Shown here: one piece after another, positions 24,728 to 32,152 of the stretch | Numbering within the stretch: the stretch's first letter is position 1 | Layout of the letters: every line of letters begins with the position of its first letter | Assembly (NCBI RefSeq): GCF_013314895.1 | Contig: NZ_JABTYE010000013.1 | Coordinates: forward strand, 62,001 to 126,000 | Reading direction: 5' to 3' | Origin: Cupriavidus gilardii | Lineage (GTDB): Bacteria > Pseudomonadota > Gammaproteobacteria > Burkholderiales > Burkholderiaceae | DNA: 64,000 bases | Translations under genes and position numbers: made by a program | Notes under the pieces: model-generated | The model's input: only the letters and a program-made list of their open reading frames with translations | Database searches by the model: none | What the model was told of the DNA's origin: nothing

Positions 24728-26554
24728 ATGAGCGATCAACCCTCCCCCAAGCGCAAGACCTTGGGACTGAAACCCGCCGCCGCCAACAACGGTACCGGCG
24801 CGGCGCGCAAGAGCGGCGCCACCCGGCCGGTGCGCGTGTCGGATCTGAACCGGCGCCGCGTACAGACCGTGGCCGAAGGGGTGCGCGCGGCCTACGAACG
24901 CGCCGAGGCCAGCGGCAAGCCGCGCAAGCAAGGCGGCGCCCGGCCGGCGCCGGATGCGCGCGGCCCGCGCCGCCCCGGCAGCGACGAGCGCGCTCCCCGC
25001 CGATTCGGCGACAACGAGCGGGCACCACGCCGTACCGGCGGCGATGAGCGGGGCCCGCGCCGCTTCGGCGACGATCAGCGGCCGCCGCGCCGCCTCGGCG
25101 CCGACGAGCGGCCGCCGCGTCGTAGCGGTGATGATGAGCGCGGCCCGCGCCGTTTCGGCAGCGACGAGCGGCCGCCGCGCCGACTGGGCGCCGACGAGCG
25201 GCCGCCACGCCGTACCGGTGGCGATGAGCGCGGCCCGCGCCGTTTCGGCGGCGACGAGCGGCCGGCGCGCCGCCTTGGCGCCGCCGAGCGGCCGCCGCGT
25301 CGTACCGGTGATGATGAGCGCGGCCCGCGCCGTTTCGGCGGCGACGAGCCGCGCGAACGGCAGGCGCGTTGGGGAGAGCGGAGCGAACGCGGAGAACGGT
25401 CCGAGCGCGGCGCGCGTCCGCCACGTCCCGAGCGCGGCGACCGCCCCGCCGCCGGCCCGCGCCGGGAATATGGAAGCGATCGCGGCGAACGCCCGGCACG
25501 CGGCGAACGCAGCGAATACGCGCCCCGCCGCACGACCGCGCCGCGCGCAGCCGAAGCCGACTCCCGCGAGCGCCCTGCCCGGCCGCGCCCTCCGCAAAAC
25601 AATGCTGGCGACCTCCGCCCGGCCCGCTCCGGCTTCGGCGCCGGCACCGGCCGCGCCCCCAAACCGGGCAGCGCACGCTCGCGCGACAACGCGCCACCGG
25701 CCGCCCAGACACATACCGCGATCCGCAGCCCGGCCCGCCCGCCATCGAGCGCGCATGCCGCCGGCGCGGCCCACGGCGACGATGGGCTCGTGCGCCTGTC
25801 CAAGCGGATGTCCGAACTGGGCTTGTGCTCGCGCCGCGAGGCCGACGAATGGATTCCACGCGGCTGGGTGCTGGTCGACGGCAAGCCGGTAACCGAGCTG
25901 GGCACGCGGATCCGTCCCGACGCGACGATCGAGATCCAGCAGGCGGCCCGTTCGGAACAGGGCGAGCGCGTTACCGTGCTGCTGCACAAGCCGATCGGCT
26001 ATGTGTCCGGCCAGGCCGAGGAAGGCTATCAGCCGGCGGCCGCGCTGTTTACCGCCGAGAACCAGTGGGAAGACGATCCGACTCGCAAGCGCTACGCACC
26101 GTGGCAGCACAAGGGCCTGGCGCCGGCCGGCCGCCTCGATATCGATTCGACCGGCCTGCTGGTGCTGACGCAGGACGGCCGCATCGCGCGCCAGCTGATC
26201 GGCGAGGACTCCAACATCGAGAAGGAATATCTGGTGCGGGTGGTCTGGGAGGACGCGCCCGATGGCCCCGTCGAGCGCAATATCTCGGCCGTGTTCCCCG
26301 CCGATCGGCTCGAGAAGCTGCGCCACGGCCTGTCGCTCGACGGCGAGCCGCTCAAGCCGGCCAAGGTCAGCTGGCAGAACGAGGAGCAGTTGCGCTTCGT
26401 GCTGCGCGAAGGCAAGAAACGGCAGATCCGCCGGATGTGCGAGCAGGTCGGCCTGAAAGTGGTCGGACTGAAGCGCGTCCGCATGGGCCGCATCGTGCTG
26501 GGCGACCTGCCGGTCGGCCAGTGGCGCTTCCTGGGGCCGTTTGAAAAGTTCTGA
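24728..26554 (+). CDS. rluB: 23S rRNA pseudouridine synthase (RluB/RsuA family) with Arg-rich repeat tail
   Basis: The C-terminal half is a normal RsuA/RluB-type enzyme. An S4 RNA-binding domain ([21 protein letters not shown], about residues 357-400) precedes the catalytic domain. That domain has [17 protein letters not shown] with catalytic Asp D471, and [15 protein letters not shown] near the end. RluB modifies U2605 in helix 93 of E. coli 23S rRNA; assignment to RluB rather than a paralogue is by family resemblance. The N-terminal 350 residues are unusual: highly charged, Arg/Gly/Pro-rich and likely disordered, with 13 decapeptide repeats at residues 77-206. Total 608 residues, about twice the core enzyme. 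It is likely cotranscribed with glnD. Confidence 0.93.
24956..25345 (+). repeat. Coding tandem repeat: 13 x 30 bp in rluB
   Basis: Thirteen units of ten residues, consensus ERxPRRxGxD, run without interruption. From 25046 they form a three-unit super-repeat of 90 bp (…PRRFG, …PRRLG, …PRRT/SG) present three times with few changes. This indicates recent unequal exchange or slippage. All changes keep the frame. Confidence 0.9.
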
Positions 26555-26591
26555 GTCAGTTGATGGCGGCGCGCGAGGCGCGCCGCTCTGA
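26555..26591. terminator. Bidirectional hairpin between rluB and the orphan gene
   Basis: An inner perfect 9-bp stem (gcggcgcgc 26566-26574 with gcgcgccgc 26578-26586) is capped outside by gtcag/ctgac (26555-26559 with 26587-26591). It lies exactly between the stop codons of two convergent genes. Confidence 0.6.
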
Positions 26592-26602
26592 CGCGTACGA
26601 AG

Positions 26603-27106
26603 CTACTGCGCAACGCGGACACCTTCCGGTTCGCGCCCGGTCACGGCAACAGCGGCCGGCGCGGTCGTGCTTCCACGGTCGATGCCGATACTGCACAAGG
26701 CGGCATGCCACTCGTCGCTTACCATTGGGCGCAGTAACAGGTGGGTCGCGGGCAGTCCGAACAGCAGATGGCACACCCATGCGATGGGGCCATGGTCCCG
26801 CAGCGGCAACGGATTCCAGCTCACCGCCAGCAAGACGTCCCCGGGATGAGTCTTGGCGTCATTGACATCGAGGCTGGCATGGCCGAACGCTAGGCGGGAC
26901 AACCTTTGGCCAATGCTCCCAACCTTTGATGCCAGTGCGGATGGTGCCCGATATCCGACCCGGAATGTGGCACCACGCCATTGCAGTTCGCCGGAATAGG
27001 ACTGGCCCGGCTCCAAAGCTTTGGCACTGGTCGCCGCGCCTCGCAGCAACCCGCGCACGTCGCTCCATGTTTGCGCGACGCCCAAATTGACGGAATGGCA
27101 ATTCAT
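26603..27106 (-). CDS. Hypothetical protein (orphan A)
   Basis: I do not recognise this 167-residue protein. The start is supported by AGGAG located nine bases before the ATG at 27106; the open frame to 27355 is not. There is no signal peptide or clear membrane helix; a hydrophobic stretch lies near residues 108-127 (IAWVCHLLFGLPATHLLL). The block WRGATFRVGY (residues 43-52) resembles [10 protein letters not shown] in the orphan encoded on the other side of def (27936-28436). Two sample lines counted by eye are 60-62% GC, below its neighbours, hinting at a different origin. It lies downstream of def on the same strand, 137 bases away, and converges on rluB. Confidence 0.65.
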   Translation of the reverse strand: MNCHSVNLGVAQTWSDVRGLLRGAATSAKALEPGQSYSGELQWRGATFRVGYRAPSALASKVGSIGQRLSRLAFGHASLDVNDAKTHPGDVLLAVSWNPLPLRDHGPIAWVCHLLFGLPATHLLLRPMVSDEWHAALCSIGIDRGSTTAPAAVAVTGREPEGVRVAQ

Positions 27107-27243
27107 GATCTCTCTCCTGATGGTCCAAACGAAACGCAGCTTTCCGCTGCGAAACGAGGACCATAGTGAGAGAGAGCTGTGGCGTCTTTCGGTATCTGGC
27201 GTCAAAAGTAGGCGCCGGACAGCCCGCCACGGCAGCGGCGCGT

Positions 27244-27780
27244 TCAGTCGTCGCCGGCTGCCGCTGGGAGATCGGGAAACAGCACCTCGGTGAAACCGAA
27301 CTTGCTGAAGTCCTTGATCCGCATCGGGTACAGGATGCCGCGCAGATGGTCGCATTCATGCTGCACCACGCGCGCATGGAAGCCCTCCGCCACGCGCTCG
27401 ATGCGCTGCCCCATCACGTCGTAGCCGGTATAGCGCAGGCTGGTATAGCGCGGCACCATGCCGCGCAGGCCGGGCACCGACAGGCAGCCCTCCCAGCCGT
27501 CCTCCATCTCGTCCGACAGCGGCGTCAATTCCGGATTGATCAGCACGGTCTTGGGCACCTGCGGCGCATCCGGATAGCGCGGATTGCGCTCGAAGCCGAA
27601 GATCACCACCTGCAGGTCGACGCCGATCTGCGGCGCGGCCAGCCCGGCGCCGTTGGCATGTTCCATGGTGTCGAACATGTCCTCGATCAGCGTGCGAAGT
27701 TCGGGGGTATTGAAGCGCTGGACCGGGCGGGCGACCTGCAGCAGCCGGGGGTCGCCCATTTTCAGAATGTCGCGAATCAT
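27244..27780 (-). CDS. def: Peptide deformylase
   Basis: The enzyme removes the formyl group from N-formyl-methionine of nascent proteins. The 178-residue metalloenzyme has all three motifs: [11 protein letters not shown] (about residues 45-55), [11 protein letters not shown] with the metal-binding cysteine, and [12 protein letters not shown] with the HEcDH metal ligands. GAGG precedes the ATG at 27780 by eight bases. It stands alone between two orphan genes and is not next to fmt, so it is probably an additional deformylase copy; the fmt-linked one would be elsewhere. The two copies of a 12-bp repeat at 27887-27910 lie upstream. Confidence 0.95.
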
Positions 27781-27886
27781 TGCTATGTCCTCTGCTCGCC
27801 CAGCCGGTGTGTGTACCGGCTGCCGCATGCGGCGGTTCTCGCCGAAATTCCGTCGATTATAGCCAGCGCCCTGCCTTCGCACTGTC

Positions 27887-27910
27887 GACGCATACGCCGA
27901 CGCATACGCC
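27887..27910. repeat. 12-bp direct repeat, 2 copies
   Basis: Two exact adjacent copies of gacgcatacgcc lie between orphan B and def, with the first six bases of a third copy after them. Confidence 0.7.
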
Positions 27911-27935
27911 GACGCCAAGGCCGGCAAGGCTGCGG

Positions 27936-28436
27936 CTACGGCGCAAAGATCCTGTCCACGTCGACATTGACCGATCGCAACCGCTCGAGCGGAACGTGCG
28001 GCGCCAGATAGCGCAACATCGTTTGCCCGCGCGACTGCAGAGTCCGGCAACCGAATACGCACTGCTTGTCGCCGTCCCACATGTCGAGCAGCGGCGAAAA
28101 CAGATTCGCGGCGGCCTGCCGGATGCGGGCGAACCACGGCGCCTGCGAAGGCGCGGCCGAAACCCGGCACAAGAGACGGCCAGCGGGCCGCTCGACACGG
28201 CTCGCGTGGCCCTTGATCCTGCGCAGGATGCCGGTATTCGTATCGGCGACATACTCGAGCCGGAAAACCTGGCCGCGAAACACGAATCCCTGCTCGTGCC
28301 GCTGTGCCGGCTGGTGCTCAAAGCCATCGCGCAGGGCGTCGAGCTTGACGCGGACGGCGAGCCAATCCTTGCATGGCGCCTCGTTGGCGGCCACGGTCGG
28401 CATGCGGGAAACGTTGGCGCTGGCGATCGAACCCAT
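27936..28436 (-). CDS. Hypothetical protein (orphan B)
   Basis: This 166-residue protein is not one I recognise. AAGGGG six bases before the ATG at 28436 supports the start. It is basic and soluble-looking, with no signal peptide and three cysteines. [10 protein letters not shown] (residues 53-62) and W25-x2-V28-R29 match, at almost the same spacing, W14-x2-V17-R18 and WRGATFRVGY (43-52) of orphan A, so the two may be distant paralogues. It lies between ligA and def, all on the minus strand, 155 bases before def and 172 after ligA. Confidence 0.6.
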
Positions 28437-28608
28437 GTGGAACCCCTTGTCGTGTGGAACACGTGGTGGAAGAACCCGCCGAGGCTAATCGCGCGGCATG
28501 GGCCGCCTCTTTCGAATTCGGCCCTGCATCTTTGCTTTGGCGACCCGCGATCGGCTGTCTCACTGGACACCGGCGCGGATCGCCGTCCTTCGGGTCAGCG
28601 TCCTGACG

Positions 28609-32152
<3,544 letters not shown>

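Follow-up and report, generated by a model that had tools for sequence, protein, structure and literature searches.

A clade-restricted gene between ligA and def in Cupriavidus and its probable distant paralogue beyond def

Genes and features of the locus

The locus lies in a window of 64,000 nucleotides, which is the whole stretch of Cupriavidus gilardii DNA that was analysed. The minus-strand order of its genes is ligA, orphan B, def and orphan A, and an rluB-like gene converges on them from the opposite strand (Table 1). The original prediction placed two unrecognised proteins of near-equal length on either side of def and on its strand, and this arrangement was found as described, with 167 residues for A and 166 for B. 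The A ORF is nested in a longer frame, open from 27355 onwards. The def product is an ordinary peptide deformylase (PF01327, 178.3 bits against a cut-off of 22.8), and neither A nor B matched PF01327, their link to peptide deformylase being positional.

Table 1. Features of the ligA-def-rluB neighbourhood in the window
Feature	Position	Strand	Description	Basis
Orphan B	27936..28436	-	166 aa, slot gene restricted to one clade	ORF
Orphan A	26603..27106	-	167 aa, probably a distant paralogue of B, constraint possibly relaxed	ORF
def, peptide deformylase, ligA-linked copy	27244..27780	-	178 aa	PF01327, E 1.1e-52
Slot	27781..28608	-	828-nt ligA-def stretch	
ligA, DNA ligase	28609..30768	-	Upstream neighbour	Reading frame; name from protein reading, no family search
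rluB-like pseudouridine synthase	24728..26554	+	Convergent neighbour	Reading frame; name from protein reading, no family search
Leader hairpin of A	27109..27175	-	Pairs the ribosome-binding site AGGAGA (27113-27118)	

A had also been described as lower in GC than its neighbours. It is indeed the lowest of the five genes, clearly so at third codon positions and slightly so overall, with total GC contents of 63.5% for A, 65.0% for def, 66.1% for B, 70.3% for ligA and 73.9% for rluB, and GC3 values of 0.71 for A, 0.83 for B and 0.86 for def. The N-terminal part of rluB (window ~24930-25500) contains a long run of DERxPRR-type repeats with GC up to 79%, and the opposite strand also has long open frames there.

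The ligA-def slot in the genus and orphan B

A close def gene was found in 59 of 60 Cupriavidus genomes, and each of the ten genomes tested for copy number (10/10) carries two def genes; the ligA-linked def is one of two in the genome of the window. A midpoint-rooted tree of def and ligA was built from 58 genomes; of the 60, G006 was left out for want of a def match at E 1e-40 and G012 because its match was partial. In all 58, the upstream neighbour of def is ligA, with an insert or with none. The ligA-def gap measures -4 to 34 nt in 51 of them and 668-1316 nt in the other seven, where it holds B or a highly diverged counterpart. These seven genomes form one clade with a support of 0.999, which includes C. 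cauae MKL-01, C. gilardii CCUG 38401 and the metagenome bin Cupriavidus sp. RH59_bin.035. It is in this one sampled Cupriavidus clade alone that the insert occurs, so a single arrival is the simplest history, and by parsimony the slot segment arrived once, at the base of the clade.

Since ligA precedes def in genomes of both kinds, the extra DNA is the insert and def itself is not an arrival. The original prediction had suggested that def was acquired or kept between A and B, a suggestion that has the physical adjacency of the three genes in its favour. A survey of their co-occurrence separated them: A-locus matches were found in 2 of the 60 genus genomes and relatives of the slot gene in 7 of the 60, against 59 of the 60 for def. 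With ligA upstream of def in 58 of 58 tree genomes, acquisition or retention of def as a unit with A and B is scarcely credible.

Some loci differed in other ways. At L035, L056 and L060 (genomes G337, G340 and G023) about 1.34-1.46 kb separate def from the rluB match, and at 18 further loci no rluB match was found within the 1.5-2.1 kb examined beyond def; these spacings, noticed in passing, point to other insertions or rearrangements of the same neighbourhood. At L047, in G021, identity to the window is 85% for def and only 55% for the ligA match next to it, and the genome sits on a very long branch, which possibly reflects a replaced ligA or a mixed assembly.

Orthologues of B that are 70-74% identical to it were found in G032, G034 (C. 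cauae) and G020 (C. gilardii), giving four carriers among 60 relatives, the genome of the window included; in that survey the other three matched at 73-74%. Across the four genomes (150 aligned codons, six pairs) every frame but that of B is interrupted in at least one, and differences by codon position are distributed 135/105/231. Of the differing codons, 42% are synonymous in the B frame, compared with 12-33% in the remaining five, and the six pairs gave dN of 0.088-0.182 and dS of 0.296-0.529 (NG86). Amino acid identities among the same four genomes are 0.72-0.82 for B, whereas ligA, def and rluB reach 0.94-0.99 over the stretches compared. B is a real coding gene whose sequence changes rapidly among these four closest genomes, yet remains subject to purifying selection.

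The other three clade members have intact ORFs in the slot, and the distant counterparts of B are 20-24% identical to it. Pairs of slot proteins were scored against 500 shuffles and against decoys, which were 1000 drawn from the 1,711 frames 100-400 aa long in 455 kb and cut at 230 aa. B and the G001 slot ORF scored 83, and G208 and the first ORF of G016 scored 77, both with none of the 500 shuffles and none of the 1000 decoys on either side as high. G001 and the first G016 ORF scored 61 (0 of 500 shuffles; 1 and 0 of 1000 decoys). Other pairs were not significant or weak: B against G208 directly (score 32; 406 and 458 of 1000 decoys as high), G001 against G208 (score 39; 204 and 101 decoys) and B against the first G016 ORF (score 42, weak; 51 and 38 decoys). 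Two other B orthologues scored 50 and 54 against G208, with 0-6 of 1000 decoys as high. Significant pairs link the slot proteins, and the slot ORFs are read as one fast-changing gene. In G016 (L079) two ORFs share the 1316-nt slot, and the second had a borderline score of 58 with the B of G020 (2 and 19 of 1000 decoys), suggesting that it is perhaps a tandem copy.

Orphan A and its relationship to B

A was found in two of 60 relatives (36 of which belong to the genus), namely the genome of the window and G032. Among the 60 genus genomes the same two gave A-locus matches, located between def and rluB, with a profile that includes A. Over the 154 codons that they share, the two A sequences show 21 differences, distributed 8/7/6 by codon position, with dN of 0.042 and dS of 0.061 (NG86, two sequences), and in G032 the loss of 1 nt near the end of the gene shortens the product to 154 aa. 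The flanking genes of the same genome pair have dS of 0.17-0.26, above that of A. The entire def-rluB stretch has 27 differences in 696 nt, and the last 240 nt of rluB beside A have 5, a region in which other genome pairs also dip (10-14 differences). Given this low divergence, a recent exchange of the A segment is probable, or else every position in it is constrained, as judged from two sequences; the low dS of A fits either of these over simple decay. No direct repeats flanking the insertion of A were found.

The leader of A folds into a stem of -39.2 kcal/mol (88 nt folded; z -5.4), and the G032 counterpart also forms a hairpin (z -3.8), and in neither case did any of 200 shuffles reach the same stability. 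Pairing within this hairpin takes up the ribosome-binding site, directly ahead of the ATG of A, suggesting that the hairpin lowers translation of A, and it could act as a translational switch or as a guard against read-through from def. Its sequence has one match in its own genome and none in 39 other genomes, G032 not being among them. In scans of 26500-28800 the inner hairpin was flagged as terminator-like, where 2 such elements were found against 1.6 expected, and no promoter match was obtained, which proves nothing.

The codon evidence for A as a real gene is weak, and no clear purifying selection is seen between the two sequences. A could be a non-coding element, with its hairpin and sequence conserved as RNA or recently exchanged, as would fit the even spread of differences over codon positions, the low divergence of the whole def-rluB stretch, the strong hairpin, the low GC3 and the shortened G032 product. 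We consider this improbable, however, since AGGAGA precedes the ATG of A and the protein shows in-frame similarity to B. Among the six frames of the window's sequence, that of A is the sole one to run through the first 154 codons uninterrupted by a stop, and its replacements are the mildest (mean BLOSUM62 0.00), a small sign of coding. A search of Rfam over 26400-28700 at E up to 1 gave nothing on the strand of A and a single match, below its gathering score (E 0.068), on the opposite strand and outside A.

As originally described, both proteins carry W-x2-V-R followed 28-29 residues later by an aromatic-RG-x2-FR block. In A these are W14 and WRGATFRVGY at 43 (spacing 29), and in B they are W25 and a ten-residue RG block at 53 (spacing 28). 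Among 15,001 frames of at least 80 aa (2.43 Mb, ~44% of the same genome), A and B themselves are the only two with the strict motif; as the motif was drawn up post hoc on this very pair, the count measures rarity and is no test.

The proposal that A and B are distant paralogues of one family received divided support. Against the B of G020 (C. gilardii), A reached a score of 64 that none of the 500 shuffles and none of the 1000 decoys on either side equalled, ranking 4th of 15,001 frames, and against the B of G034 the score was a borderline 52 (1 of 500 shuffles; 2 and 0 of 1000 decoys; rank 45). The score with the window's own B, however, was 39, a value attained by 19 of 500 shuffles and by 72 and 87 of 1000 decoys (rank 1377 of 15,001); it was not significant, and neither was that with the B of G032 (score 35; rank 2419 of 15,001). 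Profiles built without A placed it second of 2,734 frames (A2, E 0.023), at E 1.1 (A3), and at ranks 39 and 30 of 15,001 (four- and seven-sequence profiles; E 8.8 and 4.5), so that three of the four gave weak results. In the profile-profile comparison by hhalign, A and B aligned with E values of 0.0006 and 0.005, but with probabilities of only 28 and 7%, respectively.

Structure prediction likewise gave agreement in outline from poor models. The AlphaFold model of A, made with its G032 orthologue (mean pLDDT 47), has a strand at 3-11, a helix at 14-29 and strands at 36-43 and 46-53; that of B (pLDDT 55), made from an alignment without A that included the L095 ORF described below as a row, has a strand at 20-22, a helix at 25-41 and strands at 47-53 and 56-62. 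The strand-helix-hairpin order, with the helix starting from the shared W, is predicted for both N termini.

A and B might instead be unrelated orphans, the motif having arisen by convergence or chance in two arginine-rich proteins. The high scores that decoys reach at the level of A and the window's own B, together with the low hhalign probabilities, are what this would lead one to expect, and profile A5 produced a spurious match at E 1.5e-4 to a frame antisense to a cytochrome-b-like gene, which makes weak scores unsafe. The score of 64 with the G020 B, unmatched by any shuffle or decoy, speaks against it, as do the matching predicted strand-helix-hairpin order and the limitation of the strict motif to these two frames, one on either side of def. 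We regard unrelated origins as somewhat unlikely; A and B probably form one undescribed family.

A 224-aa ORF with a block-like LRGNTYRITY was observed elsewhere in the genome of the window, beside a chemotaxis-receptor-like gene (L095:1126-1797, minus strand, contig C40). It was first matched by profile A1 (E 0.0025), and a seven-sequence profile without it ranked it second of 15,001 frames (E 0.086); it is a row of A3 and A5, and a strong hit of those profiles by construction. Strong matches to it were found in 1 of 60 genomes, its own, with one more at E 0.002. It is a possible third relative that found no pairwise support, 15 of 500 shuffles being as high in the best case (with G208).

Searches for relatives and the proposed role of the family

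No match to A was found in Pfam or NCBIfam at E up to 1, nor in PHROGs or PADLOC at E up to 0.1, and B had none in NCBIfam at E up to 1 and none in PHROGs or PADLOC scans. The single Pfam match of B is a weak likeness to EspG (PF14011) over residues 24-102 (E 0.0016; 18.5 bits, below the 27-bit cut-off), which was taken as chance, with one of the ten A5 members matching. The addiction module component TIGR02574 was also rejected, as it matched one of the ten A5 members (E 0.0052) and neither A nor B.

Among 299 family genomes, strong matches to B were found in three, all within the genus, together with 14 weaker ones at E 0.0016-0.0093, of which the sole one examined (G001) is located at the slot. 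An order-wide profile search of 399 genomes, with at most 8 candidates scored per genome, returned the window's own genome and an antisense artefact; the profile searches covered the genomes of half of the GTDB species. No relatives were detected with A and B by tblastn in plasmids and phages (E up to 0.1), nor in viral contigs. Sequence searches of the PDB gave only ribosomal L19 chains, at E 0.13 or worse. Literature pairing Cupriavidus gilardii with peptide deformylase was not found, and a broader literature search gave no mention of Cupriavidus among the matches listed. In the libraries and collections searched, no convincing relative outside the clade was found.

Structure comparisons started from the same poor models. 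For B, the best Foldseek match had E 1.5 and the best VIA-align match Z 2.6. For A, whose model has a pLDDT of 47, the best VIA-align match was a methyltransferase (Z 7.8, rmsd 2.9, 82 aligned), Z values below 8 being common. With the same caution, the list for A contains several CE-type proteases and injected effectors, at Z 4-6.6, among them RavZ (Z 6.6, rmsd 4.1, 105 aligned), SseL (Z 5.5, rmsd 5.0, 104 aligned) and XopD (Z 5.2, rmsd 4.5, 107 aligned). These would point to a CE-clan or YopJ-like protease fold. The three are absent from the match list of the B model, and no function was read from the list.

The ten A5 proteins are basic, with pI values of 8.8-11.3 and mean hydropathy of -0.75 to 0.11. 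Our preferred reading, held with moderate confidence, combines one arrival in the slot, a B gene under selection, A as a relaxed duplicate repressed by its hairpin, and an accessory binding role. A segment with an intact small ORF would have entered between ligA and def once, at the base of the clade, and B would be read through from the ligA-def transcript. Its product is predicted to be a small, basic, cytosolic alpha/beta protein, most likely an accessory binding protein specific to the lineage and not directly involved in deformylation. A would be a diverged duplicate of the B family beyond def, its translation lowered by the hairpin in which the ribosome-binding site is masked, and may be under relaxed constraint. 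That A and B represent a new fast-evolving family tied to replication or to the start of translation, with the hairpin of A as a conditional switch, appears distinctly improbable.

B resembles the taxonomically restricted (orphan) genes of bacteria in being short and fast-evolving, with measurable purifying selection and with no convincing relative outside a narrow clade. It differs from them in its position between two otherwise adjacent conserved genes, with one arrival by parsimony, and in the probable second copy, A, beyond def in two genomes. def, in contrast, is an ordinary member of its family, whereas A and B are without a family match. B and its relatives, probably A among them, are a lineage-restricted gene family of modest interest. 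B offers a clean, tree-placed example of a gene limited to one lineage that came to lie between two core genes, and the slot gene changes so fast that its distant counterparts are recognised largely by position, a point of relevance to the way in which orphan genes conceal where they came from. The finding would be of greater importance if it were true that B touches DNA ligation or N-terminal processing.
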